Assembly (NCBI RefSeq): GCF_014202505.1
Contig: NZ_JACHGW010000006.1
Span: 62,001-126,000 of the forward strand
Source: Armatimonas rosea
GTDB lineage: Bacteria; Armatimonadota; Armatimonadia; Armatimonadales; Armatimonadaceae
Direction of reading: 5' to 3'
DNA length: 64,000 bases
Within the stretch, counting starts at the first letter, position 1. The number at the start of each line of letters is the position of its first letter. Below are positions 5,655 through 31,921 of this stretch, one piece after another. The notes under the pieces are model-generated. The model was not told the DNA's origin. It did no database searches and saw nothing but the letters and a program-made list of their open reading frames with translations. The translations under genes were made by a program, and so were the position numbers.

Positions 5655-5976
5655 GCCTACTCACCAGATCCGCGTTGGTAAAGAGTGCGTGCTAGGCCAA
5701 CTCACGCCCCTGCCGCAGGGCTCCCAGCTCGGCGCTCAGACCGGCGTCGGACAGATCGAGAGGGCGCACCAGCTCCTGGTCAACCTGGAGGACGAGCAGC
5801 ACTTCCCCGATGGCACAGTCTTCACCGTGGGCCGACGCTCGTTTCGGGTCGCTGCGCCTGGCCTGATCTGGGATGCAGACCCGGAGACCTCCTGCGCTGA
5901 GATTCTCTGCCAAGCTCTCACGGGCGGCAAGGCGGGGGACATGAACACCGTCGTCGATAAGTTGGCAGGAGCATAA
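5647..5976 (+). CDS. hypothetical head-tail region protein
   Basis: A 109-aa protein starting at ATG 5647 inside the end of the previous gene. It contains a compact beta domain (DGTVFTVGRRSFRVAAPGLIW) and a short helical tail ending LAGA. Size and position before the terminator-like gene fit a small connector protein; this is inference only. Its last codons GGA GCA TAA are echoed 12 bases downstream as GGA GCG TAA. Confidence 0.5.
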   Translation: MVEPTHQIRVGKECVLGQLTPLPQGSQLGAQTGVGQIERAHQLLVNLEDEQHFPDGTVFTVGRRSFRVAAPGLIWDADPETSCAEILCQALTGGKAGDMNTVVDKLAGA

Positions 5977-5978
5977 CA

Positions 5979-5996
5979 ATGGAAACAGGAGCGTAA
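5979..5996 (+). other. micro-ORF echoing the upstream C-terminus
   Basis: ATG GAA ACA GGA GCG TAA encodes METGA. It sits two bases after the stop of a gene ending GA and four bases before the next ATG. The last two codons and the stop repeat the upstream ending with one synonymous change. The -1 frame is open from before the main stop through this TAA. Confidence 0.4.
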
Positions 5997-6000
5997 GATC

Positions 6001-6966
6001 ATGGGCAATCCCTTCCCAGCTTTCCATGCCGGACTTCGGGCCGCGATCTCCGCGACCTGGCCCGATATCCAGAGCGGCAGCGACCAGCCGATCTATAGGT
6101 TCGGACAGCGGGCGCGCATCGCCTGGAAAGCCATCTTGGAGCAGGCCAACAACCAATACCCCTACGCGGTGATTTTCCTCTCTGATGTCCCGCAGGCCAC
6201 AAGCTGGGGGCTAAATAATACGATCTGGACGCCGCGTGTGGAGATCTTCTACATCACCAAAGCGGTCGCCAGTGAGCCTGACATGAGCGCTTACCTAGAG
6301 GAGCAGCTGATGGCACTGCGCCAGACGCTCCTCACCTGGTCCACGGGCTTTCAGTTCGCCTACGATGCCTCCATCGAGGTCGGGACTGCCAGCGCGGTGC
6401 AGCAGGCACTCCTCGCCGAGAACATGGACCTCTTTGTCGGCTCGATCGCCTTCGATGTGCGAGTGAGTGACAGTGGAGATAGCCAGCTTCTCTTCTTCGA
6501 TCCGCGCCAGCTCTCGGTGTGCAAGCTGGAGCCCTTCACCCTCACGACCAATGCCGGAGTCACTACGGCCACGACAAACACAGGGGCCGCGGTGGATCTG
6601 CTGACCATGGTCGATGCCATCGCCTACAACCCGACCCAGACCGTCAGTGACTATGCCAACGAAGACGCTCCGATCATGGACTATCGGAGCGGGGGCAAGA
6701 ACGACTTCACCCTCTCGATTGGGGCCATCGACGGGCAGGGGCGCTCCCAGCCTCTCATGGACCTCTGGCACCAAGGGAAAGACGCGCTCAAGTTCTCCCT
6801 GCGTGCCAAGAACCTCGACGGCACCGATGGCAAGTGGCTCATTCTCGTAGGCATCCCCGCGACCCTTAAGAATGGCGTGGTGGCAGGCAAGAGTGCGACC
6901 TTTATGACTTTCAAGCCCACCTGGGGCGTGATGCCGTACTGGGGCATGACCCCGCCGGCACTGTGA
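6001..6966 (+). CDS. tail-terminator-like protein, two domains
   Basis: A 321-aa protein. The first about 165 residues (FHAGLRAAISATWPDIQ to FVGSIAFDVRVSDSG) have the length and alternating helix/strand look of siphophage tail terminator or completion proteins. The second half (about 170-321) looks like a separate beta domain with WHQGKDALKFSLRAKN, possibly tube-like. A fusion of terminator and tube-like domains would be unusual. ATG 6001 follows a short micro-ORF. Assignment rests on gene order as much as on sequence. Confidence 0.4.
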   Translation: MGNPFPAFHAGLRAAISATWPDIQSGSDQPIYRFGQRARIAWKAILEQANNQYPYAVIFLSDVPQATSWGLNNTIWTPRVEIFYITKAVASEPDMSAYLEEQLMALRQTLLTWSTGFQFAYDASIEVGTASAVQQALLAENMDLFVGSIAFDVRVSDSGDSQLLFFDPRQLSVCKLEPFTLTTNAGVTTATTNTGAAVDLLTMVDAIAYNPTQTVSDYANEDAPIMDYRSGGKNDFTLSIGAIDGQGRSQPLMDLWHQGKDALKFSLRAKNLDGTDGKWLILVGIPATLKNGVVAGKSATFMTFKPTWGVMPYWGMTPPAL

Positions 6967-6986
6967 GCAAAGCTACCAAGCTTTGC
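6967..6986 (+). repeat. tetraloop palindrome after a stop codon
   Basis: GCAAAGCT-ACCA-AGCTTTGC is a perfect 8-bp stem starting directly after the TGA of the preceding gene. It has no T-run, so it is not a standard terminator. It belongs to a small family of similar elements in this prophage (20385, 20475, 32772). Confidence 0.6.
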
Positions 6987-7006
6987 AGGAGAAAGACTCT
7001 AGCGAT

Positions 7007-7483
7007 ATGAGTGCACCCGCACGAGTACTTACCCGCCTCCAGGAGCTCGCCCAGGCGGCGGAGAGCTACCCTGAGCGCCTCGCCCGCGCGATCGTGGACG
7101 CCGAGCAGGAGAGCCTCGACGACATCGAGGCGGAGTTCAGACGCCGGAGCGAGGGGACGCTGACCTACTCCGACCTGCGCCGCATGGGCCACCCCTACGC
7201 GCGTCGAGACCCACAGACCCCACTCGATCCCGCCATGCTAAACACCCACAGCGGGGAGCTGCTGGCGGGCTACGAGCAAGAGTCCATCGAGGCTGATGAT
7301 GAGGGTACCAGCGGGATGGTCTTCAACGACTCGGAGCACGCCCACCGGATCATGTCCGGGGGCAAGGGGGACAGCCTGATGGTCGAAAGGCCAATCGTCG
7401 AAGCGGTCGAGGACTTTATCGAAGCGCCCAGGCGAGAGCGCCTTCAGAGGGCGCAGCAGAGTGTGCTCAGTCGGATGGTCTGA
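7007..7483 (+). CDS. HK97 gp10-like minor tail/connector protein
   Basis: A 158-aa protein starting at ATG 7007. The N-terminal half is a charged helix (RLQELAQAAESYPERLARAI). The second half has a gp10-like core (LNTHSGELLAGYEQE, EHAHRIMSGG) and a charged helical end. HK97 gp10-like proteins sit at the head-tail joint, and this gene lies between terminator-like and tube-like genes. Family call is tentative. AGGAG at 6987 is far from the ATG, so an earlier TTG at 6983 cannot be excluded. Confidence 0.45.
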   Translation: MSAPARVLTRLQELAQAAESYPERLARAIVDAEQESLDDIEAEFRRRSEGTLTYSDLRRMGHPYARRDPQTPLDPAMLNTHSGELLAGYEQESIEADDEGTSGMVFNDSEHAHRIMSGGKGDSLMVERPIVEAVEDFIEAPRRERLQRAQQSVLSRMV

Positions 7484-7490
7484 GCCAAGC

Positions 7491-7510
7491 CCTGAGGTGC
7501 GAACCTCAGG
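7491..7510 (+). repeat. tetraloop palindrome between genes
   Basis: CCTGAGGT-GCGA-ACCTCAGG is a perfect 8-bp stem with a GNRA-type loop, eight bases after the previous stop. No T-run follows; the next Shine-Dalgarno (AAAGGAA) lies eight bases downstream. Confidence 0.55.
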
Positions 7511-7527
7511 CACTGAAAGGAAACGAA

Positions 7528-7701
7528 ATGGCAGTCAAGAAGTATGCACTGTACCGCCGGGTCGCTCGCCGCGGCTTTGGGGGGCCGTGCGAGAAGAAGG
7601 TTATCGAAGTCGAAGAGGGCACCCAGCCCCAGGGCGCGATTGAAGTCGCGCCAGAGACCGAGCTGCAGGACTGGGCTCCTGTGGCGGAAGAAGGAGCATA
7701 G
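7528..7701 (+). CDS. 57-aa small phage protein
   Basis: ATG 7528 is preceded by AAAGGAAACGAA, a good ribosome binding site. The product begins MAVKKYALYRRVARRGFGG and ends in an acidic tail APVAEEGA. A basic N-terminus and acidic C-terminus are common in small head-tail proteins. The stop lies four bases before the next ATG. No family is recognised. Confidence 0.6.
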   Translation: MAVKKYALYRRVARRGFGGPCEKKVIEVEEGTQPQGAIEVAPETELQDWAPVAEEGA

Positions 7702-7705
7702 CTAA

Positions 7706-8227
7706 ATGGCACTGACACTCACCTCGTACCTGGTCCCCAACCAGATCACCTATGTCAAGATCACGCCGGGGACGCCCAACGCCTCGGGCGTGCTGGTCTT
7801 CGATAGCGCCAACATGCTCGATATCTCTGAGGCGGTTCTCAAGCGCTTCGTCTCGGTGGAGATGACCCCGATGCAGGAGCTAGAGCAAATCAACAATACC
7901 GACAGCTTTGTAAAAAATAATGTGGTCCAAGCTATTAGCTTCAACGCCACCATCCGCGAGCTGATCCCTTCCAATGTCCTCTCAGCGATTCAGCAGGTCT
8001 GCATGGGCTTCAGCTACGTGCGTGTTGAGGTCGGCTACGCTTCAGAGTTTGCCATTGGCACCACCGTGGTCAAGGCCGCGGTCGCGGGAGTCTGGGGCGA
8101 GGCAGGGGGCATCGGCGTGCAGGCTGGCCAGAACGTGAACTCGCTGACGATCCTCCCTGCAGGCAAGACCAGCGCCAACGGCACCGGATTCTGGGTCGGA
8201 CTTCTGGCAGGAACCATTCCCTTCTAA
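7706..8227 (+). CDS. putative major tail tube protein
   Basis: A 173-aa beta-rich protein (MALTLTSYLVPNQITYVKIT) lying directly upstream of the frameshifted chaperone and tape measure genes, which is the standard place of the tail tube protein in siphophages. Hydrophobic strands and a glycine-rich end (GTGFWVGLLAGTIPF) fit a tube subunit. The call rests on synteny; no motif proves it. Confidence 0.45.
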   Translation: MALTLTSYLVPNQITYVKITPGTPNASGVLVFDSANMLDISEAVLKRFVSVEMTPMQELEQINNTDSFVKNNVVQAISFNATIRELIPSNVLSAIQQVCMGFSYVRVEVGYASEFAIGTTVVKAAVAGVWGEAGGIGVQAGQNVNSLTILPAGKTSANGTGFWVGLLAGTIPF

Positions 8228-8236
8228 AAGGACGCT

Positions 8237-8821
8237 ATGAGCAAGCTACTCTCTCTCTTGCCTCAAGCCCAAGTCTTTGAGGAGACAAGGGCTTTCATTG
8301 ATTCCCGCTACCCGGACTCACCGGAGACGCTGGCCTTTCGCATCGTTCCCGGCCCTCTGCATGACATAGCTGTGCAAGATAAGAAAAACGAGTTACAGCA
8401 GCGCTTTGTCACTGCTGGCGAGGTTATCTCGCTTCCGGGTCAACCACCGCAGACAATCTCCTCGTCGATGTGTAAAACGCTAGCATTGCTCCTTGTGTGC
8501 CAATGCCCGCCTAAGGCAGATCAAACGGTATCAGGGGGCGTGACCGAAGACCTCACAGGGCTAGGCTGGAAGCCCTACACACTCGATACCTGGGTCGAGA
8601 TTGCTAATGGAAGCCCACAGGTTTTCTGGGCATCTGTAGCACTGGTGAGGCTCCTTGAGGCTCGTGCCGCTGGTCTCAAGACGCGGAGATCGTACGTCAG
8701 TCTGGCATATCAGCAGGAAATGCCAGAGGGTGCCAATGAAGACGACCTAGTGAGCCCGACGCTGGACGGGCTCATGGAGGAAGGTATCAAGACTCAAGAG
8801 GCTCTACAGGGAAACGAGTAG
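8237..8821 (+). CDS. tail assembly chaperone, short (G-like) product
   Basis: A 194-aa zero-frame product ending EALQGNE. Its position between the tube-like and tape measure genes, size, and a -1 frameshift signal at its last codons identify it as the G-type tail assembly chaperone, which keeps the tape measure protein soluble during tail assembly. Sequence similarity to known G proteins is not evident. The stop TAG 8819-8821 is bypassed in a fraction of ribosomes, giving the longer product annotated separately. Confidence 0.75.
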   Translation: MSKLLSLLPQAQVFEETRAFIDSRYPDSPETLAFRIVPGPLHDIAVQDKKNELQQRFVTAGEVISLPGQPPQTISSSMCKTLALLLVCQCPPKADQTVSGGVTEDLTGLGWKPYTLDTWVEIANGSPQVFWASVALVRLLEARAAGLKTRRSYVSLAYQQEMPEGANEDDLVSPTLDGLMEEGIKTQEALQGNE

Positions 8822-9042
8822 CCGGGCGGCTGTCGGGGGCGCGTGGCGAGCTGCTCCGCGCCTCCCTTCAGCCGTCCGGCATTCACCCTGACCTTCTGCA
8901 TCGCTTTGACCATCTCCTCACGGGGATGTATCGCGCCCTGGCCGTGATGGTCCCACAGGCAGGACTGCTTCCTGTTCCTGACCCTGACGGGGACTGGCTC
9001 AGTGACTTGGTAGCGCTCCATAGAGAAAGCAAAGACGGATGA
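8237..9042 (+). CDS. tail assembly chaperone, frameshift fusion (GT-like)
   Basis: Decoding in frame to AAC 8813-8815 and then slipping back one base continues with CGA 8815-8817. It adds 75 residues (starting RVAGRLSGARGELLRASLQP) to residues 1-193, giving 268 aa in total. The extension ends at TGA 9040-9042, overlapping the tape measure ATG 9039. The extension has no start codon or ribosome site of its own, and without frameshifting 8822-9038 would be an unexplained gap. In lambda the GT fusion links the tape measure to the tube protein. Confidence 0.8.
8809..8880 (+). promoter_or_regulatory. programmed -1 ribosomal frameshift signal
   Basis: The slippery heptamer G GGA AAC (8809-8815) is in the correct phase. 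After a 5-nt spacer a stem begins: 8821-8832 GCCGGGCGGCTG pairs with 8869-8880 CAGCCGTCCGGC (12 bp, one G-U). Inside it 8835-8843 GGGGGCGCG pairs with 8857-8865 CGCGCCTCC (9 bp, one G-U). The zero-frame stop TAG overlaps the stem base. Heptamer, spacing and stem match the canonical bacterial -1 design. Confidence 0.85.
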
Positions 9043-10610
9043 ACCCAGACGAAGAACTCAAGATCAAGCTCTCGACCGAGTTTGGCGGTATGGACGATGC
9101 GGCCAAGTACGCCGCAGCGCTCCGCAATGTCGCCAACGAAGAGGGAAACCTGGCGCGCGCTTCTCGCCGCGCGGCCAAGGTGCTGGCGGAGTCGGCCAAG
9201 GTCAAGCAGGACGCGATCAAAGCCACGGGGAGCAATGCCCCAGCGCCCAACTACTACCAGCTCTCTCGCAATGAGGTTATTGGGCCTCACACACGGCTAG
9301 GGCTTCTGCAGCAACGTCTGGCAGAGGCAACCGCGCAAGGGGCCGACGATGCACTTCTGAAGGACCTGCGTCTCAAGGTCCGACGCACCCAGCGCTTAAT
9401 TGACCGATCCGGCGAGGGCATTGAAGGACTAAACCACGAGGCCATTGGTCAGGCAATTCTGACTAGCCGCTTCAATGCCGGCCCTTTTCAGCCTCTCGCG
9501 GGCCGAGCTCTTCGCGCCACGCTTACGCCAGAGCGTGCGGCAGAGTTGGCCAAGTCGGTAGCAGGGCTTCCCGGTGGCAAAAAGCTCGCAGAAACGATTG
9601 AGGGGCTTGCTGGAAGCAATGCTGCCTCCGTTGTTGGAAAACTGGTTACGGGTCCTGCTGGCGTGGCCGCTCTGGGTCTTCTAGGGGTGGCCAAGGCCAG
9701 CAAGGCGTTCTACGAAGCCGAGTTTACTCGTGCGGAAAAGACGTCTGCCCTGACGCAAAAGCTAACCGAGTCCATGGCGGCTTTTGGGGATGCCCGAACA
9801 GGCTCTTTAGGCCAGATGATCGGCGGGCCGGGCGCGATGGGAAACGCCTTTGCTTTTCAGAACCGCATTGGTACAGACCCGCTTGCCCGTGCCGCCGCTG
9901 CGCGTCTGGGAATCTCGGACCTCGCCGCCCCTTACGGAAAGATTGATCCGGGGAAAGAGTACATTGAGGCCATCAAGAAACTCTCCCGTGAGGGTGACGA
10001 GATGGTTCGTCGCCGCACTGCGCGTATTTTAGGGATCGAGCGTGAGGTCGAGCGGTATCGCCTGCTCTCGCCTGAGACAAAGAAGGCGATGGAGCTGCAA
10101 TCGCGGATGGAGGGCATCATCAATGACGTTGCCCAGCAGAAGAACGCAGGGGAGTTTGATGCCGCGCAAAAACGACTAGAGAACGCCAAGAACCTGTTTG
10201 ACACCGCCAAGGGTAAAGGTTTTTCTCGGGGCATTACGGACTTGATGAATCGAGAATCAAATGCACTAGAGCTTCTTGCTGGCTTGGCGGATGCCGCAGA
10301 CAAGATTGGTGTTCAAGAGACCGATCCCACCGGGCTGCTCATGCTCCAGAACCCCGCCCAGGCGCTTGGCGTTTACCTAGGCAATAAGCTCGGCCAAAAG
10401 ATTCAGGGAGGCATTTCTGGGGGCGAACAGGGCGGCAAGTCCGAAACCCAGAAGAACACCGAGGCCATGAAAGAAAACACCCAGGCCATGATGCGGCTCA
10501 ACAAAAACATCGGGGAGACCGAGGGCAGCCGCTCGGCACTGGGCAAGATGCGCGGCGATCAGATCTTCGATGCCTACCTCATGGGCGCTCTACAGATGGG
10601 AGCCTTTTGA
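9039..10610 (+). CDS. tail tape measure protein
   Basis: A 523-aa, mostly helical, Ala/Lys/Glu-rich protein directly after the chaperone frameshift region. A hydrophobic Gly/Ala segment at about residues 195-225 (VGKLVTGPAGVAALGLLGVA) is the membrane-like stretch usual in tape measures. The C-terminus is coiled-coil-like (TEAMKENTQAMMRLNKN). At this length a fairly short siphovirus tail would be expected. ATG 9039 overlaps the stop of the frameshift fusion. It ends MGAF, and those codons are repeated just downstream. Confidence 0.75.
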   Translation: MNPDEELKIKLSTEFGGMDDAAKYAAALRNVANEEGNLARASRRAAKVLAESAKVKQDAIKATGSNAPAPNYYQLSRNEVIGPHTRLGLLQQRLAEATAQGADDALLKDLRLKVRRTQRLIDRSGEGIEGLNHEAIGQAILTSRFNAGPFQPLAGRALRATLTPERAAELAKSVAGLPGGKKLAETIEGLAGSNAASVVGKLVTGPAGVAALGLLGVAKASKAFYEAEFTRAEKTSALTQKLTESMAAFGDARTGSLGQMIGGPGAMGNAFAFQNRIGTDPLARAAAARLGISDLAAPYGKIDPGKEYIEAIKKLSREGDEMVRRRTARILGIEREVERYRLLSPETKKAMELQSRMEGIINDVAQQKNAGEFDAAQKRLENAKNLFDTAKGKGFSRGITDLMNRESNALELLAGLADAADKIGVQETDPTGLLMLQNPAQALGVYLGNKLGQKIQGGISGGEQGGKSETQKNTEAMKENTQAMMRLNKNIGETEGSRSALGKMRGDQIFDAYLMGALQMGAF

Positions 10611-10633
10611 TGAATAAGATGGGAGCTTTCTAG
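10610..10633 (+). other. micro-ORF MNKMGAF echoing tape measure C-terminus
   Basis: The ATG overlaps the TGA of the tape measure gene (TGATG) and the ORF reads ATG AAT AAG then ATG GGA GCT TTC TAG. The last four codons re-encode MGAF with two synonymous third-base changes against ATG GGA GCC TTT. The stop lies two bases before the next start. The same ATGAATAAG precedes the echo at 13622. Confidence 0.45.
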
Positions 10634-10635
10634 CT

Positions 10636-13314
10636 ATGGCGGGAATGGCTGGGGTGGATGAGAACGGCAAGGTCACAAAGGGCCGGGTCACGCGCGCCAA
10701 GCTGGACATCAGCGAGACCTACGCGCTCTCGGATGGGGGCGTTTCTGACACGCGGCGGCATGGGGCGGTGTCCCAGATCGCCGCACGCGATAAGGGAGCC
10801 AACTCCTACCGCTCGAACGAAGTGCGCCTCTACGCCTCGGGAGCCTGGGGACTGCGCCCGCTTCAGCTCAAGCCTAGTGCCATGCAGGAGTTCACTGCTG
10901 GAGCGTCTGCGGTCTTCCTGCCATCTTCCACGGGCGTGGGTTCGTCTCGCCAGATCCAGACTGCGCCCATCACCCTCGCCGCCAAGTTTCGCAGGCCCAC
11001 GGGTACGGGCATGGCCAGCGCTCCAGCAGGGGCCAACAGCGACGGGGGCGACCTCTTCTTTCGCTTCAAGGTGCCGGCAGGATCAAGCTGGGACCAGAGC
11101 TCTGCCGTCTCCTCAGAGAGCCACATCACGGCGCTGCTCTCAACGCTCTCGGGCATCCAGACAACGAGCCAGCCGCTTGACATTCTGGCACGCTCCACCA
11201 ACGCCGTCGAGGTCGATGCGGGATTCTGCCTGCGCTTTACCCTACCCGGTGCCAAGCAGCACTCGCCGGACATGGTGGCGATCTTTACCTGGGGACAGTA
11301 CGCGCTTCTGCTTGGTGGCGACGGCGAGGGAGCGCTCTGGATGTATGCTCCCTACACGGTGGGTGGTGATCCGGCCTGGCGCTCGATCCGCTCGCTGCGC
11401 TGGTCTCGTCCTGCTCAAGTCAGCGGGTTTGCCCACACCATCTGCATCTTCCCCCACATGGGTGAGCACGGCGAGAAGCACCTCAGCATCATCTCCGTGG
11501 CGATGGACTCCACCAGCGTCTCCAGCGCCGGGGGCGCTTCCACGCTCTCGCCAGCCAAGGGGGACAGCGGAGCGCACAGCACGACAGAGGACCTGTGGAC
11601 GTTCGATCCGAGCGTGACCGGCCAGCTCGATGTCGCTGCCACAGGCCAGGTCACCACCTCGCGCCGCTTCTACCTCTTGGAGCGGCGCGATCTGCGGGGC
11701 GAGTGGCAGGTCTCCCGCCTCACGTTCCCTGTGGGATCTCCCATTGGCAAGCTGATCGGCGACCCCCACGCCAAGGCGACCCCCTTGACGCTAGGAGGGA
11801 TTCCCTCAACGGACTGGACCGTGCAGAAGCTCTCGCGGGAGTCGGGGGCCATGACCATCACGCCACGGGTCAAGGATGCCGATACCGACTCGACCAGCGC
11901 GATCGATACTCCCTACGTCATCTTCGACTTCTACAGCGACGGGAGCAAGACGCCGCTCCTGTACGGCTACAGCATCTCCCGCGCTCCCTTGGTGGTCACC
12001 AGCGCTCCCGGAGAGTTCACCTGCCCGGTCAAGTCGGTCAGCGTGCAGACGGGGAGCGCCGACCCGCGCAGTGAGGCGGCGCACGTGGATATCGAGGACC
12101 TCACCGATGCCTGGCCGCGCCTGCGCAGGCGCTCTCGCCTCTCCTTCCGCCTCACGACCACCTACACGCCGCCCGGCGGCACAGAGCAGACCATCACGCT
12201 CTTTAGGGGGGCGGCCAAGTCCCCGCGGCGCACCAAGAAGGGGACGAGCTACGGCACCGAGGGATTTGGCACCACGGCCCGCGTCTATCCGTCTGCCGAG
12301 TGGAGCGAGTACAGTGTGAGCTGCGTCGGGATGTGGGAGCGCCTCTCTGCCATGACCACCCGCACGGTTCTCTCCTTCGAGACCTTTGTCGCCGATCCCG
12401 TGGCAGGGACAGCCGCCGACGGCTCGCTGATCCCCTGGAAGGTCACCGATGTGATCAAGCGGGTGCTGACCATCGCGGGCTTTCCCTCCTCCATGCAGCG
12501 CATTCCTGACCTGGGGATTCGCCTCAATCCCGGCGTCGGCACCGGGGACAGCGACCGCATCTTTGAGCCGGGAACCAGCGCGGCGCAGCTCGTGGTAGAC
12601 CTGGCGAGAAGCTACCTGGGGCGCTGGCTGCACTTCGACTACAACGACGGCGCGGAGGGCAAGTGGACACTGATCGGGCCACCGGCGGCGGGAACCGTGA
12701 CGCCACTCTTCGCCTTCACCAAGGACGCTCCCACCGTCGCCTCGGGCTCGCTGGTCTTGCCTCATGCGCTCCATGCCTACCCGGCTGGCACGGCTCCGAC
12801 CTTTGGCCGCGCGACCAGCTACATCCTCCCGCCACAGAAGAACCATATCTGGCTCATCAGTGCGGTCAATGCGGCTCAGGCAGGAGCGGTCAAGATCGAC
12901 AACCATGTCTATAATCCCCTCAGTTATGCGGTGCCTGGAGCCAGCACCGCGCCGGACTACGAGAGCGGACACTACATCGGGCACGAGGAGCTCTTCACTC
13001 TTGCCGATCCTGCGTTCTGGGCAGGAGGGCATCCTCTGACCTACCAGCAGACCCAGAACATGGTCAATTACGTGGCGCTGCGCCTCTTCCCGCTGGTCTG
13101 CATGGCACGCAAGATTCAGCCGATCCACGCGCCCCTGGTCTTTATCCAAGACCCCGTACATAGCGGCTGGCGTCCTCTGCGCTTCTACGACCCGGTGACG
13201 CTCGATGGCGTGGGCTACTACGTGCGGAGCGTCAATATCCTCTACGACAACGACGGACTCCAGATGGCCGACTACGAGCTGGAGCGGTTGATTCCCTACA
13301 AACCAGGGACATAA
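10636..13314 (+). CDS. large tail hub/baseplate-like protein
   Basis: An 892-aa protein immediately after the tape measure gene, where distal-tail or hub proteins are encoded. The central and C-terminal parts contain tail-protein features: DVIKRVLTIAGFP at about 600, then FEPGTSAAQLVVDLARSYLG and WTLIGPP, and near the end VGYYVRSVNILYDNDG. These resemble gp27-like hub proteins that sit on the tube and carry fibres. The N-terminal part is Ser/Thr-rich beta structure. No peptidase or lysozyme motif was seen. Confidence 0.5.
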   Translation: MAGMAGVDENGKVTKGRVTRAKLDISETYALSDGGVSDTRRHGAVSQIAARDKGANSYRSNEVRLYASGAWGLRPLQLKPSAMQEFTAGASAVFLPSSTGVGSSRQIQTAPITLAAKFRRPTGTGMASAPAGANSDGGDLFFRFKVPAGSSWDQSSAVSSESHITALLSTLSGIQTTSQPLDILARSTNAVEVDAGFCLRFTLPGAKQHSPDMVAIFTWGQYALLLGGDGEGALWMYAPYTVGGDPAWRSIRSLRWSRPAQVSGFAHTICIFPHMGEHGEKHLSIISVAMDSTSVSSAGGASTLSPAKGDSGAHSTTEDLWTFDPSVTGQLDVAATGQVTTSRRFYLLERRDLRGEWQVSRLTFPVGSPIGKLIGDPHAKATPLTLGGIPSTDWTVQKLSRESGAMTITPRVKDADTDSTSAIDTPYVIFDFYSDGSKTPLLYGYSISRAPLVVTSAPGEFTCPVKSVSVQTGSADPRSEAAHVDIEDLTDAWPRLRRRSRLSFRLTTTYTPPGGTEQTITLFRGAAKSPRRTKKGTSYGTEGFGTTARVYPSAEWSEYSVSCVGMWERLSAMTTRTVLSFETFVADPVAGTAADGSLIPWKVTDVIKRVLTIAGFPSSMQRIPDLGIRLNPGVGTGDSDRIFEPGTSAAQLVVDLARSYLGRWLHFDYNDGAEGKWTLIGPPAAGTVTPLFAFTKDAPTVASGSLVLPHALHAYPAGTAPTFGRATSYILPPQKNHIWLISAVNAAQAGAVKIDNHVYNPLSYAVPGASTAPDYESGHYIGHEELFTLADPAFWAGGHPLTYQQTQNMVNYVALRLFPLVCMARKIQPIHAPLVFIQDPVHSGWRPLRFYDPVTLDGVGYYVRSVNILYDNDGLQMADYELERLIPYKPGT

Positions 13315-13322
13315 AACAAAGG

Positions 13323-13334
13323 CCAGGAACCTAG
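13323..13334 (+). other. echo of the hub C-terminal codons
   Basis: CCA GGA ACC TAG repeats the ending CCA GGG ACA TAA of the hub gene (PGT stop) with two synonymous changes, eight bases after the first stop. The -1 frame from the gene end runs open into it. No ATG opens this copy (ATA is in that position). Confidence 0.35.
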
Positions 13335-13343
13335 GAGAACGAC

Positions 13344-13622
13344 ATGGACGGACACGTTTACAGTAAGCGGGCGATCACGGACTTCGCCAAGCGAGCCGAG
13401 GAGCAGAAAGCAAAGAACCTGCAGGGGCACTTTGCCGAGAACGCAGGCAAGGGCTACACGCCCCAAGCTCACCAGGCGCTCAGCAACGCCCCCACGATCA
13501 CAGCGACCCGAACGGCGCTCCAGAACACACTGGGCCAGTTCCTCTTGAGGCCCGCCGACGATGGCACGCTGACGGCCGGCACCTTCGGCTTTGACGAGTG
13601 GGGCCGGATGGTGGCAATCTAA
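13344..13622 (+). CDS. 92-aa small tail protein
   Basis: ATG 13344 is preceded by AGGAGAACGAC, a good ribosome site. The product is charged and helical at the N-terminus (KRAITDFAKRAEEQKAKN). It ends in a compact beta part (DGTLTAGTFGFDEWGRMVAI), a pattern seen in small proteins between hub and fibre genes. No family is recognised. The last codons (VAI stop) are repeated in the following micro-ORF. Confidence 0.55.
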   Translation: MDGHVYSKRAITDFAKRAEEQKAKNLQGHFAENAGKGYTPQAHQALSNAPTITATRTALQNTLGQFLLRPADDGTLTAGTFGFDEWGRMVAI

Positions 13623-13642
13623 TGAATAAGGTGGCGATCTAG
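13622..13642 (+). other. micro-ORF MNKVAI bridging two genes
   Basis: ATG AAT AAG GTG GCG ATC TAG starts inside the TAA of the upstream gene (TAATG) and ends in a TAG whose last base starts the GTG of the fibre gene (TAGTG). The last three codons re-encode VAI of the upstream protein (GTG GCA ATC) with one synonymous change. Translation could pass through it by termination and restart. Confidence 0.45.
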
Positions 13643-16600: not shown

Positions 16601-17088
16601 CGGTCTTGGTCTTTGCCACGACCAACGCGGCGGACAAGTGGCCCTCTCTCGCCCTCGATCCGTGGGGGAAGATCCTCTTGCTCTACGAGCGGGCGGGCGC
16701 GGTGTATCGAAGGTCCTCAGACGATGAGGGCGCTTCGTGGAGTGATGAAACGATGGCATTTAGTTCAGGCAAGTTCCCCGACCAGAGCGCCGACCCCATG
16801 ACCGGGACGCTCCTAACGGCGGCAGTGGCCGCCTCTGGGAGCGACTGGGTGATTAAAGGCCAGGTGCAGCACCCGGGCGATGCAAGCCCATCCGCCGAGT
16901 TCACCTTCCAGTACTGGAATGGGAGCGCTCTGGTCGATCTGAAGGTGAAGAAGAGCGCGTTTCGGCTCGCCTGTGGCTACGAGGTGCAAGGGCGCTGGAA
17001 CCTGGCCTGCACGGTAGCGGGGGAGTCGGACGTGTCTAACTGGTGGTGCGGGGACGGGGAAGGGCGCACGTGGACCCGGATCACGTAG
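13642..17088 (+). CDS. large tail fibre / receptor-binding protein with Asp boxes
   Basis: An 1,148-aa protein starting at GTG 13642, the last gene of the tail operon. The N-terminal part should attach to the hub; the middle is Gly/Ser/Thr-rich beta structure with LPGGGPGGG linkers. The C-terminal third has sialidase-type Asp boxes (SSDDEGASW at about 1035 and GDGEGRTW near the end), suggesting a beta-propeller glycan-binding domain. No catalytic sialidase residues are claimed. Inference: host recognition fibre. Confidence 0.65.
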   Translation: MAFTPTAKWLTGRSREQVYTLDFTLSLEWAPIIVGSGVVVHFVKRCDLIAAADGGYQLAFNPTFGGGTRGPYVQIQPTFQLVAGSIRTVSASPYPPDSTYQYVWSPAFDPAGGWVQANRQVADYKWGWLLTIYPGDGGSGGVTQFVDVSAGSPVTFWYIGTSLPATPGPLGATVYSSSGVPAGVTIPPDTLRPAPDDWERTHGPTYSHTLSGTITFSGGLLEEYFLNLDQPSALDIGGHSVPSAQVSELGSEDPDLGQLQWARQYSERRASGSVQSITVNLGALGTYSSTTAANASFPNSSFQMPFAQVSAFSHALGSTGSSMNATYSLTALWSAGGVTVSPQPVSYSDSGGSASDSGGTATTNALTGSSAWPSFPTYLPGGGPGGGQAERGGVKVGNASTHLKIPTPQTMVFNGQLLRLPIGAANDVPYDVQIDTYSSAPGTAPGSLVTISGVTSSFSRTFTYDDRASRGATRLGSAISRAGGGSTWYVAKSGFPDNAGVRLTGTNAPACLSRRMALRGRRWGLYNATLPDMADILIAPWPSYTLSATATASVTGGILGLTGATGAGSIYFASGTVSTAPLPEYRYFSFRVRSVGSANQSVRLQRSGSVSIPTQHTYDWTVTTGADGVWTTFDLDALGSFGSSILAGFITPALMSGFWVITVPSGATVEIEYLKASKHTFARLDAIRGLWSTGNPALTGIVDGSPYYFTLAGTDTLPSWLYGGWSLTPQASPSGSKPWGHERPTNANVNSGSYFPQAWFYDADNWWYIAGGGLLYNPSGGGWEVFFNQEPSAGLGGTPSPGSSTTPESSLVGLGIDCQDVYERVQVYSGAGDVFGHSGGNYGLTTTLQFGILLGAASTGLEVGDTDAGWPDVVAYDPTPAERARGAVAGVENYAILSPDLRSNITYTWRLDPEVDISQFLTASPVDRDIWRTIWALSADGKGLAALASADGWYALAAVETSGGTTGIRFRRCDHGVPDVPSGMRWPVLVFATTNAADKWPSLALDPWGKILLLYERAGAVYRRSSDDEGASWSDETMAFSSGKFPDQSADPMTGTLLTAAVAASGSDWVIKGQVQHPGDASPSAEFTFQYWNGSALVDLKVKKSAFRLACGYEVQGRWNLACTVAGESDVSNWWCGDGEGRTWTRIT

Positions 17089-17120
17089 CATCGATGCTCT
17101 GGTCACGTAGCTTGAAAGAG

Positions 17121-21902: not shown

Positions 21903-23564
21903 GTGGAAACTAACAGGCTGTACTTTGGCGACAATCTCACCGTGCTGCGGGAGAAGATCCCGGATGAATCCGTAGACCTCTGCTACATCGACCCGCCGTT
22001 CAACTCAGCCCGAAATTACTTCGTGATCTTCAAGGACCGCACCGGGGACGCCAGCCAGGCGCAGGAAGCCGCCTTCGTCGATACCTGGAACTGGAGCCAC
22101 GAGAGCGAGTACGCCATGCGCGAATTCACACGCCAGCCCAATCAGGAGCTGCGCGTGTGCATGGAGGCGCTCCACACCATGCTCAAAGAGTCGCCCATGA
22201 TGGCCTACCTCGTGAGCATGGCCCAGCGCTTCATCGAGATCCACCGGGTTCTCAAGCCTACGGGCAGCTTCTACCTACACTGCGACCCGACCGCGAGCCA
22301 CTACCTAAAGATCGTTCTCGATACAGTATTCGGACCGGAAAATTTCAGAAGTGAGGTGATTTGGAAAAGGACTAATTCCCGAAGCACATCGGGTAAGTGG
22401 CCAAGACTTCATGATGTTATTCTTCAGTATTCTTGTAGCACTACAGCAATTTTCCATTCATTACAAGTTCCAGGAGATGTTGCTAAAATGCCTCATACTC
22501 TAATAACAGGCATAGATGGATTAAAATATCAAACCTTTGAGTTAACTGCTCCAGGTGTTACTAAAGATGGTGAAAGTGGAAAACCCTGGCGGGGACACAA
22601 TCCGACTTTGATGGGCAGGCACTGGGCAAATAACTTTGAGACACTTGACAATTGGGACGCAGAAGGTCTTATACATTGGCCCAAAAATGGAGGGTTTCCA
22701 CGTCGTCGAGCACAGGAACCTTTTCAACCCACAGAGCGAGTTGTAACTGTGGGAGATGTTTGGACAGATATTGATCGCATAAATCAATCTGCAAAGGAAC
22801 GTCTCGGCTACCCCACCCAGAAGCCCCTTGCTCTCCTGCGCCGGATCATCGAAGCCAGCTCGAACCCTGGGGACGTGGTTCTCGACTGCTACTGTGGCTG
22901 CGGGACGACGGTACACGCGGCGCACGAGCTCGGGCGGCGCTGGGTAGGGATCGACATTACCCCGATCGCGGTCTCGGTCATCAAGACGCGCCTGGAGCAG
23001 ACCTTCGACGGGCTGAAGGTGCCTATCGACGGGTTCCCGACCGACTACGAGGGAGCGCGCACGCTCTTTGAGACAGACCCCTACCGCTTCCAGACCTGGG
23101 CTTGCACGCTGGTGGGAGCTTACCCACGGCTCAAGAAGGGGGCGGATCGAGGCATAGACGGCGACCTCCCGTTCTACGACAACAACGAGAAGAGCCAGCT
23201 CGCTCTTGTCCAGGTCAAGGGGGGCAAGGTTGGAGCCGCGCAAGTGCGGGATCTGGTCGGGACGGTCCAGCGCGAGAAAGCAGCGCTCGGGCTCTTTGTG
23301 TGTCTCGATGAACCCACCAAGCCCATGCTCACCGAAGCAGCTTCTGCGGGTCTCTGGGAGGCGGGCTACGGCCGAGAGTATCCACGAATCCAGATACTGC
23401 CCGTGCGGGCGCTCCTGGAGGGCACAGTGGACGTTCGGATGCCTCCGCAAGAGAAGCGCTCCCTTCTGGGCTTCAAGGCCGCCAAGGGAGCAGTAAAGGG
23501 CAAACAGACAGCGGCCAAGGTGACCCAGACCAACGGCCAGCCAGAGCTCACCTTCGAGCTGTAA
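21903..23564 (+). CDS. DNA methyltransferase with C-terminal nuclease-like domain
   Basis: A 553-aa protein from GTG 21903. Motif IV IDPPF is near residue 27 and the AdoMet-binding motif LDCYCGCGTTVHAA near residue 322, the order of beta-class (type III Mod-like) methyltransferases. The part between about residues 140 and 300, holding the target-recognition region, is AT-rich with different codon use. The C-terminus (about 400-520) has RGIDGDLPFYD and LVQVKGGK, a PD-(D/E)xK/Mrr-like core. Such phage enzymes modify their own DNA; a nuclease role would be an unproven addition. Confidence 0.75.
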   Translation: METNRLYFGDNLTVLREKIPDESVDLCYIDPPFNSARNYFVIFKDRTGDASQAQEAAFVDTWNWSHESEYAMREFTRQPNQELRVCMEALHTMLKESPMMAYLVSMAQRFIEIHRVLKPTGSFYLHCDPTASHYLKIVLDTVFGPENFRSEVIWKRTNSRSTSGKWPRLHDVILQYSCSTTAIFHSLQVPGDVAKMPHTLITGIDGLKYQTFELTAPGVTKDGESGKPWRGHNPTLMGRHWANNFETLDNWDAEGLIHWPKNGGFPRRRAQEPFQPTERVVTVGDVWTDIDRINQSAKERLGYPTQKPLALLRRIIEASSNPGDVVLDCYCGCGTTVHAAHELGRRWVGIDITPIAVSVIKTRLEQTFDGLKVPIDGFPTDYEGARTLFETDPYRFQTWACTLVGAYPRLKKGADRGIDGDLPFYDNNEKSQLALVQVKGGKVGAAQVRDLVGTVQREKAALGLFVCLDEPTKPMLTEAASAGLWEAGYGREYPRIQILPVRALLEGTVDVRMPPQEKRSLLGFKAAKGAVKGKQTAAKVTQTNGQPELTFEL

Positions 23565-27398: not shown

Positions 27399-27835
27399 TG
27401 TCTAACCCAATCGCCTTCTCGCTTCTGCTTGCCTACGCCCAGGCGCAGGAGGCCAAGCGCGCCCTCGATGCCATCGACTTTGGCTACTACGACGATCTCA
27501 CCACGACCGAGAAGTGCCGCCTTTGGTGGGATCAGCTCGATCACCTCTTCCCCGCCGTGGCCACGACCTGCCCGCCGGTGACGGTCGAGGACCTGATCGC
27601 GCACGACGAGCTCGACACTCTCCGGGACACCGAGAGCATCGCTAGCCTGGAGGCGCTGACCCCCGCCGAGCTGCGGGACCAGCGCTGGCGCTTCGAGTGC
27701 TACGACGAGTGGGAGGCTCCCGACTCCGAGCACGTGGACTACAAGCTCGACCACTACCTTCGCCAGCTCCGCCACCAAGCGATGGCCGCCGCTGGCGTTT
27801 CTGTCTCGCTACCGACCTACCAGGAGGGCAATTAG
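27398..27835 (+). CDS. hypothetical early phage protein
   Basis: A 145-aa acidic helical protein with several Trp and Tyr (EKCRLWWDQLDHLFPA). Starts at an ATG overlapping the previous TGA. No family is recognised. Confidence 0.55.
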   Translation: MSNPIAFSLLLAYAQAQEAKRALDAIDFGYYDDLTTTEKCRLWWDQLDHLFPAVATTCPPVTVEDLIAHDELDTLRDTESIASLEALTPAELRDQRWRFECYDEWEAPDSEHVDYKLDHYLRQLRHQAMAAAGVSVSLPTYQEGN

Positions 27836-28456
27836 ATGCCTACCACTAAGCCAATCAGGGTTGTAGATTCTTCTCGACCCGCGCCCCCAGCAGGCACCAA
27901 GACCCACAAGCAGGGATGTCCCTGCCCGATCTGCAAGATGCAGCGCAAGAAGGCCGAGCAAGAGGTGCGCGCCGAGGAGTACGCCCTGGCGATCCGCACC
28001 CAGAAGGCGGAGGAGCTTGCCAAGGTCGAGAGCCTTGAGGCCCAGGTCTCCCGAGTGCAGGAAGCCCTTCGCACGATGGAGGACAGCCGCAACATTCTCC
28101 AGACCCAGCTGCGCAACACTAACGAGGAGCTCAAGGCGGCCAAGGAAGAGAACGATGCTCTGAACACTGAGGCCGGCATCAACCACCGCAAGCTGATCGA
28201 CCAGAGAGCACAGATCGACGAGCTCCTGGCCCACGTGACCAGCGCGGAGAAGGAGCTGACCGCGATGCAGTCGGAGCTCGCCTCGATCACTGGAAGCCGA
28301 GAGCAGCAGTTCCGGGAGTGGGACGAGGAGCGCAACGTGCTTCAGGCCATGCTGGAGCACGCCGAGATAAGTCGGAGCGGGGCACGGCTGATGATCGCCC
28401 TTGTGGTCTCGCTTGCCTTGGCGCTGGGGATTGTGATCGGGAAGGTTGGACGATGA
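27836..28456 (+). CDS. Cys-rich, coiled-coil, C-terminally anchored protein
   Basis: A 206-aa protein. A CPCPICKMQ cluster near residue 28 could bind metal. Residues 35-180 form a long heptad-like coiled coil, and the last about 20 residues are a membrane segment (MIALVVSLALALGIVIG). The layout resembles a cytoplasmic rod tethered to the membrane. Followed by another small membrane protein overlapping by four bases. Role unknown; spanin-like or membrane-organising functions are possible. Confidence 0.55.
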   Translation: MPTTKPIRVVDSSRPAPPAGTKTHKQGCPCPICKMQRKKAEQEVRAEEYALAIRTQKAEELAKVESLEAQVSRVQEALRTMEDSRNILQTQLRNTNEELKAAKEENDALNTEAGINHRKLIDQRAQIDELLAHVTSAEKELTAMQSELASITGSREQQFREWDEERNVLQAMLEHAEISRSGARLMIALVVSLALALGIVIGKVGR

Positions 28457-28710: not shown

Positions 28711-29090
28711 GCATAATGCCCTGCCCGTTCTGTGGGCGTAACTCATTCCGCACAAGGGCTTCCGCAGGCTATCTAGTCATGTGCGCTTCCTGCGGAACCA
28801 CCGGCCCCGGCGACAGCCTCACTGGAGGAGGCACTACGCACGACACGCAGGAGGAGGCAATCGCCGCATGGAACAAGCGCCACACTCCCGCCCCAAGCAA
28901 CACCCAACAAGCCGCCGCCGCCGTTCTAGCCGCTCAGGAGGCCAAGGGCTTGAGCAAGTACGGCACGACGCTCGACACGGCGGGACTCAGCCTGCTTGAG
29001 ATAGCCGAGCACTACCAGCAAGAAGCCGCCGACGCCCTGATGTACGCGACGGCGATGGTGGAGCTGATGAAGAAAGAGGCCGCCTCATGA
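28707..29090 (+). CDS. Lar-like zinc protein with helical C-terminal domain
   Basis: A 127-aa protein from GTG 28707. The N-terminal 50 residues show the Lar/restriction-alleviation pattern: CPFCG, CASCGTTGP and EEAIAAWNKR. The C-terminal half (LLEIAEHYQQEAADALMYAT) is a helical module like those in small phage nucleotide-metabolism proteins. Lar-type proteins can modulate host type I restriction; that function is not proven here. Confidence 0.6.
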   Translation: MSIMPCPFCGRNSFRTRASAGYLVMCASCGTTGPGDSLTGGGTTHDTQEEAIAAWNKRHTPAPSNTQQAAAAVLAAQEAKGLSKYGTTLDTAGLSLLEIAEHYQQEAADALMYATAMVELMKKEAAS

Positions 29091-30184
29091 ACACCCAGAT
29101 GCTTCTGCTCTCCCGGATCGTCGAGACCCCCGGCTTCAATCCGCGCGAGAAGTACGGCGATGAGGAGTTTGCAGAGCTCGTCGAGAGCATCCGCACCAAT
29201 GGGATGATCACGCCCCCGCTGGTGCGCGCCGCCGATGCCGAGGGGATGTCTTGGAGCCTGGTTGCGGGTCACCGGCGCGTGAAGGCCGCTCGCCAGATCG
29301 GTCTGGAGCAGATCGCCTGCGTGTGCCTGCCCTACGCACCGGAGGCGGACAACCTCCCCTTAGCCCTAATCGAGAACCTGCACCGCAAAGACCTCGACCC
29401 CATCGAGAAGGCCAAGGGCTTCAAGCGCATGATGGATCGTGGGCTCAATAAGCTCCAGGTAGGCAAGGTGCTGGGCATCTCGGACGCCTATGTGGGGCGG
29501 ATGCTGTCCTTGCTGGAGCTGCCCAGTCCCATCCAGCAGCTCGTGACCACCAAGGGCCTAGGGCAGGAAGCCGCCTCGCACCTCGCCACGGGGATTCGCC
29601 AGGGGATGCCAAAGCGCGAGGCCACCACGCTGGCACGCACCGCCGCCAAGGACAAGCTCACGGGCTACGAGGTGCGCCAGGAGGTTCGCAAGTCCCTGGG
29701 CGATCCCATGCCACCCGTGCGCCAGCCCAGCGAGATCTTCTTGTCTTTGCCCATGAGCAAGAAGCCCGTTCTCGACTGGGCACTGATGCGCTTTGGGAGC
29801 CTGGCGGGGGCGCTGGAGGCTCTCCAGGCGCTACACGCTCCCGCCACGGCCAAGAAGCAGGCAGGGGAGCCCTCGCCCATCGCGGTGGGCTCTGATGCCG
29901 TCATGGGCACCTGGCGCGATCCCATGGGCGTGGTACGCACGGGTCAGCGGCGCTGGCCTGAGTTCCTCGTGGGCATGAACCAGGGGACGGGCGGGCTCAT
30001 CGCGCTCCCCGCTGGCCCCCTGCCTGCGGGCTTTGTCCTCTGCTGCGAGGTCATGCCCAACGACTCGGTACACATCGCCGCCACGGCCAGCGGTCGGGCT
30101 CGCACGGTCGCCGAGACGATCAAGGACAGCCTGATGGGCCGAAGGATCGATCCTTCGGCGGGCAAGAAGGGCGGCATCAAGTAA
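29087..30184 (+). CDS. ParB-like protein 1
   Basis: A 365-aa protein. ParB/Sulfiredoxin-like N-terminal domain: NPREKYG near 20, VAGHRRVKAARQIG near 58 and ALIENLHRKDLDPIEKAKGF near 90, then an HTH (QVGKVLGISDAYVGRMLSL). ParB proteins bind DNA and CTP. No ParA is encoded nearby, so segregation is not obvious; phage ParB-like proteins often act in replication or transcription control. It overlaps 28707-29090 by four bases. Confidence 0.75.
   Translation: MNTQMLLLSRIVETPGFNPREKYGDEEFAELVESIRTNGMITPPLVRAADAEGMSWSLVAGHRRVKAARQIGLEQIACVCLPYAPEADNLPLALIENLHRKDLDPIEKAKGFKRMMDRGLNKLQVGKVLGISDAYVGRMLSLLELPSPIQQLVTTKGLGQEAASHLATGIRQGMPKREATTLARTAAKDKLTGYEVRQEVRKSLGDPMPPVRQPSEIFLSLPMSKKPVLDWALMRFGSLAGALEALQALHAPATAKKQAGEPSPIAVGSDAVMGTWRDPMGVVRTGQRRWPEFLVGMNQGTGGLIALPAGPLPAGFVLCCEVMPNDSVHIAATASGRARTVAETIKDSLMGRRIDPSAGKKGGIK
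30138..30159. repeat. 22-bp perfect palindrome at the end of ParB-like 1
   Basis: GCCGAAGGATC followed by its exact complement GATCCTTCGGC, inside the last codons of the gene. As RNA it folds into a 9-bp stem with a TCGA loop. It belongs to the same type as the other tetraloop palindromes. Confidence 0.5.
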
Positions 30185-30444
30185 TGGCTCGCACGCTCCT
30201 TCCCGCATCCCAGCGCTGCCCCGCACAGAAGGCATTTGCAGACGCGCTGTGCCCGGATGGCATTGGGGCTAAGGACGCGGCCACGGAGCTGTACCGCCTA
30301 CTGGCGCTAGCCCAGAGCATTCACGACAACCCCAACGCAAAAGAAGCCGACCTGCGCCTGGCGACGGACATCGTAGGCGCAGGTCACATCGTCGCTCATC
30401 ACCTGGAAGCAATCCGGGAGCTGAGCAAAGGACTACCAAAATGA
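30184..30444 (+). CDS. hypothetical small helical protein
   Basis: An 86-aa, helical, slightly charged protein between ParB-like 1 and the sliding clamp, overlapping the clamp start by four bases. No family is recognised. Confidence 0.55.
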   Translation: MARTLLPASQRCPAQKAFADALCPDGIGAKDAATELYRLLALAQSIHDNPNAKEADLRLATDIVGAGHIVAHHLEAIRELSKGLPK

Positions 30445-31664
30445 TTCATGTTTCAACCCGAGACTTAAACCAGGCACTTGCCATCGTCACGCCGCTTGCC
30501 CTGAAGGCGGGCACGCTTCCGATCACGAGCACAGTGCACCTTCTTCCGTCCAGCAACAAGCTGGCCCTGATTACTACGAGCATGAGCGCATGGCTACGGG
30601 CCGAAGTCCCAATGATGAGCAACTCAGGCACTCCTGACCTTGGACTTGGCGAGCCCACGCCCAAGTCTCTAGGCACCGAAGAGGTCGGCACGTGTATCGG
30701 AAGCCGGCAGCTCAACACGCTCGTAAGCACGCTGGAAGCCCCCGATACGCAGATCGCACTTCCCGAAGGAAACAACAAGGCGACGGTCACCAGCGGGCGA
30801 GTCAAGGCCGCTCTCCTATGCCTCCCCGGAGAGGAGTTTCCACACCCTGCCAGTGATGGACAACTTGGGCAGCCGACCGTGCTTCCCGCCGAGGTATTCT
30901 GCATGGCTCTCCAGAGTGCCATTGCCTTTGCCGCAACGGACACGAAGCGAACGGCCCTTTGTAGCGTCCTGCTCGATGGCGACCGACAAGAGGTGCGATT
31001 TGTGGCTACGGATACGCACACGCTCTTTCGTAGGTCGCTCTCGGGAGGGAGCTACACCGGGGTCTCGCCCCTGGGCAAGTGCCTGATTCCCATGGAGTCT
31101 GCCACACACGTGCTTCGGATCGTGCGTGCACTGAAAGCCCTGGAGGTTTCCCTACGAGTCCTCAAGCCGGAGACGGGTGGTAGCTACTTGGTTGTTGGTC
31201 TGGCTTCCGGCGATATGGCAGTGACGATGACGCTTCGGCTTTCCGAGGAGGCGTACCCCAACTACGAGCGCGTCATCCCGACGGCTCACGAGAGGGAATG
31301 GACGCTGGATCGAAAGGACGCGCTGACCGCCATCTCTCGCGTCTCCATTGCCGCCAGTGACAATGCGAACCGCTGCGTCCTGTGTAACTACGACCGCCCC
31401 TCATCTGCACTGATCACGGCTGAATCGGGCACTATCGGCGTGATCGAGGACGAGCTGGAGGTAGCCGCCAATGGTGAGCCGATTGAGATCTGCTTCAACG
31501 CAAAGCTGTTCAAGCGGTGTCTTGATGCGATGGTGGGCGATGGCGTCTCCCTGCGGATGACCGAGCCCCTGCGGCCAAGCAGTATTGTGCCCACCGATGA
31601 GCCCGCCACAGACGGGTGGCACGTCTCGACGTTGACAGTTCTGATGCCGATGCAGGTGGTTTGA
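30441..31664 (+). CDS. dnaN: DNA polymerase III beta-clamp-like protein
   Basis: A 407-aa protein with the length and fold pattern of bacterial beta clamps. Recognisable parts are TRDLNQALAIVTPLAL at the start, LPGEEFPHP near 130, a second-domain start LPAEVFCMALQSAIAFAATD, YPNYERVIPT near 275 and a C-terminal TLTVLMPMQV, the usual clamp ending. It would tether the replicative polymerase to phage DNA. No phage polymerase gene is in the window, so it probably recruits a host enzyme or one encoded to the left. Confidence 0.8.
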   Translation: MIHVSTRDLNQALAIVTPLALKAGTLPITSTVHLLPSSNKLALITTSMSAWLRAEVPMMSNSGTPDLGLGEPTPKSLGTEEVGTCIGSRQLNTLVSTLEAPDTQIALPEGNNKATVTSGRVKAALLCLPGEEFPHPASDGQLGQPTVLPAEVFCMALQSAIAFAATDTKRTALCSVLLDGDRQEVRFVATDTHTLFRRSLSGGSYTGVSPLGKCLIPMESATHVLRIVRALKALEVSLRVLKPETGGSYLVVGLASGDMAVTMTLRLSEEAYPNYERVIPTAHEREWTLDRKDALTAISRVSIAASDNANRCVLCNYDRPSSALITAESGTIGVIEDELEVAANGEPIEICFNAKLFKRCLDAMVGDGVSLRMTEPLRPSSIVPTDEPATDGWHVSTLTVLMPMQVV

Positions 31665-31680
31665 GAAGGTTCGTACCTTC
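31665..31680 (+). repeat. tetraloop palindrome after the clamp stop
   Basis: GAAGGT-TCGT-ACCTTC starts immediately after TGA 31662-31664. It is the same placement as the palindrome at 6967. Confidence 0.5.
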
Positions 31681-31696
31681 TTTGAGGAGCAATACC

Positions 31697-31921
31697 ATGA
31701 GATGCAAGCGATGTAAGTGCGATATTTCCCGTCCCATCGAGCAGTTTGGCAACCCCGCCGGACTGCCCGATCAGGGCGATGGCCCGGTCTGCGCCGTGTG
31801 CTGGCTGTCCACCACGACCAGGGGAATCTACGGCGGCCCCGTGATGCCAGTCAAGCTGCCCATTCAGCAGCTCAGCATAGACGTGAGCCTCGATCTTGAG
31901 CAGAAAGCGGTGGCAGCATGA
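31697..31921 (+). CDS. small zinc-finger protein
   Basis: A 74-aa protein from ATG 31697 (MRCKRCKCDISRPIEQFG) with GAGG ten bases upstream. CxxC (CKRC) and a later CAVC pair are a typical small zinc ribbon. It overlaps ParB-like 2 by four bases. Confidence 0.6.
   Translation: MRCKRCKCDISRPIEQFGNPAGLPDQGDGPVCAVCWLSTTTRGIYGGPVMPVKLPIQQLSIDVSLDLEQKAVAA

Follow-up and report, generated by a model that had tools for sequence, protein, structure and literature searches.

Termination-reinitiation (TeRe) coupling (PMC6728339, PMC10666635) is the described system that the gene junctions reported here resemble most closely. It operates across overlaps such as TGATG, TAATG and TAGTG or across gaps of 2-4 nt, with an SD contained in the terminal part of the upstream ORF and a minimal module of about the last 15 nt of that ORF, and each of these has its likeness in our locus. 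In E. coli reporters the coupling drops steeply with distance and is nearly lost at a gap of about 20 nt; the upstream gene's final 15 nt are enough for it (PMC10666635). MIRUs (PMC12548453) place a small ORF between two genes and couple it to the downstream gene, a coupling that for our locus is predicted, and they form a repeated, apparently mobile family. Free-standing homing endonuclease genes of T4-like phages offer another likeness, since at nrdA/mobE an ATG overlaps the first of two stops in UAAUGA (PMC2988022). Lastly, the tail assembly chaperones of the lambda G/GT type are made by programmed -1 frameshifting, and the operon studied here has a candidate site of that kind.

Our locus differs from each of these systems. 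Unlike in simple TeRe coupling, two modules stand in series, separated by an ORF of 5-7 codons, and the C-terminal codons of the first gene recur in the second module. Whereas MIRUs are repeated, the insert here is shorter than 25 nt, is unrepeated in the genome and finishes by duplicating the end of the gene before it. In contrast to the T4-like case, no endonuclease ORF was found at the junctions, which hold only the ORFs of 5-7 codons, with three codons before the echo. The new element is that the bridge closes with a repeat of the preceding gene's end, and no earlier description of such gene-end echoes was found in the open-licence literature that we searched.

The window, by which we mean the whole 64,000-nucleotide stretch of Armatimonas rosea DNA that was analysed, has a G+C content of 62% and lies within a contig of 221,851 bases (C6) of a 6.33-Mb genome. 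In window coordinates, the stretch between about -13 and +38 kb has the appearance of a prophage. Searches of Pfam and PHROG gave hardly any matches for its tail genes, and an upstream capsid-type gene has a 41% relative in one viral contig. A slippery heptamer, GGGAAAC, stands at 8809, near the end of the gene at 8237-8821, and a -1 shift there would add 75 residues (window 8809-9042), with a stop that overlaps the ATG of gene 9039. Since this layout is that of a tail-assembly chaperone ahead of a tape-measure gene, we infer from synteny that gene 9039-10610 encodes the tape measure. Most other junctions of the operon overlap or have gaps of at most 10 nt, and are thus of the tightly coupled type. 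Elsewhere in the window, a homologue of DNA polymerase III beta (sliding clamp) lies between two ParB-domain proteins in the putative prophage (29087-33852), and one ORF at 21903-23564 joins a DNA methylase domain to an Mrr-type restriction endonuclease domain.

At four junctions of the tail operon (J1 to J4, Table 1), the last codons and the stop of a gene reappear shortly beyond that stop, as 6-12 nt of sense codons followed by a second stop. Direct reading of the sequence bears out the coordinates given for them in the original prediction and its linkers of 8 or 11 bases (11, 8, 8 and 8 nt from J1 to J4), as well as its statement that the second copy lies in a -1 frame that is open through the copy's own stop, which holds at all four junctions. 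The linker TGAATAAG is identical at J2 and J4. A weaker case proposed at the gene end 17088 is a repeat that is in a different frame, carries one I/V change, has no gene close downstream and is not significant alone.

Table 1. Gene ends, linkers, micro-ORFs and echoes at the junctions of the tail operon (window coordinates)
Junction	Feature	Position	Strand	Remark
J1	First copy, GGA GCA TAA	5968..5976	+	End of gene stopping at 5976
J1	SD core, AGGAG	5967-5971	+	7 nt before micro-ORF ATG
J1	Micro-ORF, METGA*	5979..5996	+	Stop 4 nt before next start, ATG 6001
J1	Echo, GGA GCG TAA	5988-5996	+	
J2	First copy, ATG GGA GCC TTT TGA	10596..10610	+	End of gene 9039-10610
J2	Linker, TGAATAAG	10611..10618	+	Same as J4 linker
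J2	Micro-ORF, MNKMGAF*	10610..10633	+	ATG overlaps stop (TGATG); next ATG 10636
J2	Echo, ATG GGA GCT TTC TAG	10619-10633	+	
J3	First copy, CCA GGG ACA TAA	13303..13314	+	End of gene 10636-13314
J3	Echo, CCA GGA ACC TAG	13323..13334	+	Without ATG micro-ORF
J3	SD of next gene, AGGAG		+	Spans echo end and bases just after; next ATG 13344
J4	First copy, GTG GCA ATC TAA	13611..13622	+	End of gene 13344-13622
J4	Linker, TGAATAAG	13623..13630	+	Same as J2 linker
J4	Micro-ORF, MNKVAI*	13622..13642	+	ATG overlaps stop (TAATG)
J4	Echo, GTG GCG ATC TAG	13631-13642	+	TAG overlaps next start, GTG 13642
17088	Weak case, ATC ACG TAG / GTC ACG TAG	17080..17111	+	22 nt apart, gene end 17088

The echoes were counted by scanning the 40 nt after each stop for a repeat of the last k codons and the stop, synonymous codons being allowed, and at 297 gene ends of this genome the chance expectation was obtained by permuting the downstream sequences. 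Three echoes with k of at least 3 were observed there against 0.05 expected, and all three belong to consecutive junctions (10610, 13314 and 13622) of one operon. None occurs at the 536 host gene ends in the rest of the genome, and none at the 1,987 gene ends of 200 arbitrary viral contigs, where 0.5 would be expected. In other prophages of the phylum the same scan returned 3 echoes among 758 gene ends, two of which depend on uncertain gene calls, the third being a clean tandem repeat of 15 bp; echo-like matches in L087 and L096 were rejected for doubtful gene calls. When the gene ends of J2, J3 and J4 were set against 1,496 downstream sequences, each found an echo of k at least 3 in one or two of them, and each was matched at that level by one of 196 downstream sequences that contain a ribosome-binding site. 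A codon-blind scan at the DNA level also singles out J1, J2, J4 and the 17088 junction. These counts show that the echoes are real, confined to this operon and no general habit of phages; the pattern is statistically exceptional and local.

All six sense-codon differences between the copies are third-base and synonymous, as had been claimed. However, the pattern is weaker than it appears, because a search that matches residues itself selects synonymous differences, so that the claim is partly a product of how the echoes are recognized. Given that J1, J2 and J4 also emerge from the codon-blind scan, part of this selection bias is removed, and within these three echoes the differences preserve coding meaning, including the change from TGA to TAG at J2. 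Only synonymous drift is open to the first copy, which is the genuine end of a coding sequence; the distal copy overlaps the ribosome-binding site of the next gene and hence may be frozen. The pattern hints at a coding constraint that acts on the two copies alike, short of proof.

Three of the junctions, J1, J2 and J4, hold a short ORF of 5-7 codons whose ATG lies at the upstream stop or 2 nt after it and whose start is in frame with the echo, as a bridge requires. An SD core (AGGAG, GGAG and GGTGG, respectively), within or edging the first copy, stands exactly 7 nt before each of these ATGs, a spacing that agrees with TeRe coupling. The micro-ORFs stop 4 nt before the next start at J1, 2 nt before it at J2 and in overlap with it at J4. 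Both steps therefore have the spacing of TeRe sites at J4 (TAATG, then TAGTG), J2 (TGATG, then 2 nt) and J1 (2 nt, then 4 nt), and J3 does not. An ATG over the first of two stops, as at nrdA/mobE, is found at J4 (TAATGA) and J2 (TGATGA), and these two junctions also have what reads as a MIRU-like small ORF with stop/start overlap or near-overlap. A repeated mobile family of the MIRU kind is absent, since TRATGAATAAGRTGG occurs exactly in the genome at J2 and J4 only.

Among junctions with gaps of 12-45 nt, SD-equipped bridging ATG micro-ORFs are present at 3 of 6 in the operon vs 1 of 439 elsewhere (binomial 2e-7), in a test that was framed after the junctions had been seen, that counts GGTGG as a core (2 of 6 if it is not counted) and that takes its background starts from a simple gene caller. 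Without the SD condition, a bridging ATG micro-ORF is found at 17 of the 439 background junctions. The original prediction had offered three options, and of these the micro-ORFs that couple genes are best supported by the SD-equipped bridges at three junctions, although J3, without an ATG, does not follow. RNA folds at the junctions are not consistently better than shuffled ones (z of 1.7, 0.0, -1.6, -2.3 and -0.2), and no Rfam matches were found there.

We propose, with confidence evenly balanced between belief and doubt, that the echoes are duplicated termination-reinitiation modules, which would act as stepping-stone mini-cistrons across gene gaps of 19-25 nt. At these junctions the segment with the gene end, the SD core, the stop and, at J1, J2 and J4, a start codon is present twice. 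The first copy is the coding end of the gene and would also be the initiation site of a micro-ORF of 5-7 codons; the second closes this micro-ORF where the next gene starts or shortly ahead of it, and provides (J1, J2, J4) or adjoins (J3) the ribosome-binding site of that gene. Ribosomes would finish the upstream gene, pass to the micro-ORF, reach the second stop and restart on the next gene, and termination-reinitiation coupling would thereby be kept over the 19-25 nt. Translation of the micro-ORFs and the coupling are predicted from the sequence. So is a local duplication as the source of the echoes, after which synonymous changes would have accumulated in the coding copy and the distal copy would have been held by its role in ribosome binding. 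In favour of this relay, the echoes are about as long as the minimal coupling module (about 15 nt), and a tandem repeat across a gene end is found singly elsewhere, with 15 bp in the prophage locus L033. Against it stand the echo of J3 without an ATG micro-ORF, the 17088 repeat without a following gene, the linkers, which do not recur beyond the second copy, the sharing of TGAATAAG by J2 and J4, and the equivalent gene ends of distant relatives, which have no echoes. If ribosomes were relayed in this manner, the junctions would constitute a tiny natural device that keeps neighbours coupled after their spacing grew and one way for tight operons to gain or swap parts with stoichiometry kept; the distance rule of termination-reinitiation would also become testable on natural sequences.

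The main rival to the relay is that the echoes are recombination scars, left where recombination attached a diverged allele of each gene, or a mobile gene inserted at the gene end, immediately before the old gene end, and we consider it a credible though unlikely explanation. The last codons of the old allele would then persist as the carrier of the next gene's ribosome-binding site, and ATGAATAAG would represent the opening three codons either of the gene that came next in the donor or of an inserted gene since lost. Diverged gene ends under selection would be expected to keep their coding meaning, as do the sense differences and the stop changes (TGA/TAG, TAA/TAG) here, and conservative differences occur just outside some of the echoes (K/R at J3, A/T at J1). 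The repeats end sharply at a stop or start codon. Beyond the second copy the linkers do not recur, identity there being about 30% as counted by eye in the alignments. This excludes a simple tandem duplication of the whole unit and means either that the linker was inserted or diverged freely, or that a diverged allele left the second copy as its remnant. The UAAUGA overlap in which T4 mobE begins at nrdA (PMC2988022) is arranged as at J4, and the presence of the one linker TGAATAAG at J2 and J4 agrees with either a shared origin or a shared requirement. However, three or four similar illegitimate joins would be needed at adjacent genes, each leaving 2-4 codons, and we found no donor allele, intact inserted gene or related homing nuclease. 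The sole HNH_3 match in the genome is remote and on another contig (C4), and the genome has a single further TRATGAATAAG, at a place where no echo was noted. A separate candidate, ATGAATAAG as a repeated element, was rejected; the near-matches on contig C10 look like unrelated gene starts. If the junctions are allele scars, they record gene-by-gene replacement within the tail operon.

It is rather improbable that the echoes are plain local duplications at harmless places, without function and with the micro-ORFs as by-products. Near-tandem repeats with a spacing of 19-23 or 44 do occur at other gene ends or gaps of the prophage (-9017, -5286, -3232 and 27835), the 15-bp case in L033 is of the same sort, and duplications of 20-23 bp would be tolerated only where the reading frame is unbroken. 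Such duplications would nevertheless have to be reconciled with the lack of echoes of k at least 3 at all 1,987 viral gene ends, with the unduplicated linkers, and with micro-ORFs that have the start in the frame of the echo and uniform SD spacing in all three cases.

A further idea, to which we attach only a slight probability, is that the echoed residues themselves matter. By keeping a second, synonymously recoded version of each C-terminus, the phage would let the micro-ORF recreate the nascent peptide together with the stop context and so set the efficiency of reinitiation, and the echoes would then be a cis-acting duplication of the termination context that tunes expression between tail genes.

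Another option in the original prediction, that the echoes are backup C-termini with which ribosomes slipping to -1 near a gene end would finish on the same residues, is hardly tenable. At each of the four junctions the -1 frame does stay open and meets the echo in register; however, no in-frame X XXY YYZ heptamer lies within 150 nt of the five gene ends, the echo junctions thus differing from tail chaperone frameshift sites and from the canonical GGGAAAC elsewhere in the same operon, and in distant relatives of the 10636 gene the ending is other than PGT. Chance, aided by SD motifs and local composition, is equally hard to credit, for although J1 (k of 2, overlapping an SD, the weakest of the four and not significant individually) and the 17088 repeat are each compatible with it, and GGA GCN precedes a stop also at 7701, where the gene end itself contains an SD, J2, J3 and J4 have a single match each among the 196 sequences and far exceed the 0.05 echoes expected.

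For following whether the echo codons change in step with the real C-terminus, no close relatives were found by megablast or tblastn in phages, by a related-locus search of viral and genome contigs, or in the whole phylum. The nearest, at about 35% for the 10636 protein and 41% for the capsid protein, are too far for an alignment of the junctions, and a profile of seven relatives has no conserved stretch long enough to search with. No echoes are present at the equivalent gene ends of distant relatives (25-35%) or of the related genes on contig C15, indicating that the feature is recent or lineage-specific. That contig (L038; 15,318 bases, with ends that overlap by 95 bases) belongs to the same genome and is apparently circular, at about 15.2 kb. 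Relatives of genes 9039 and 13344 are found on it in the order of the operon, with the 10636 gene missing from between them.

Repeats of several other kinds were observed in and around the window. Tandem paralogous genes with common C-termini lie outside it near -31 to -29 kb, and were rejected as echoes because they are related over long stretches. From -9017 to -8985, directly after a terminase-type gene, GACTCTTTGACAC is repeated 20 bp apart, and there is a further TTTGACAC at the stop of that gene. An exact 21-bp repeat, 44 bp apart, spans -5286 to -5222 (C6 56714-56778) and begins at the end of a gene stopping at -5279. At 27816-27858, a 23-bp near-tandem repeat covers a gene end and the following ATG (CCTACCAGGAGGGCAATTAG / CCTACCACTAAGCCAATCAG). 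In the related prophage locus L033, the clean 15-bp tandem repeat lies at 1650-1720 on the minus strand and echoes RTQ and the stop in frame.
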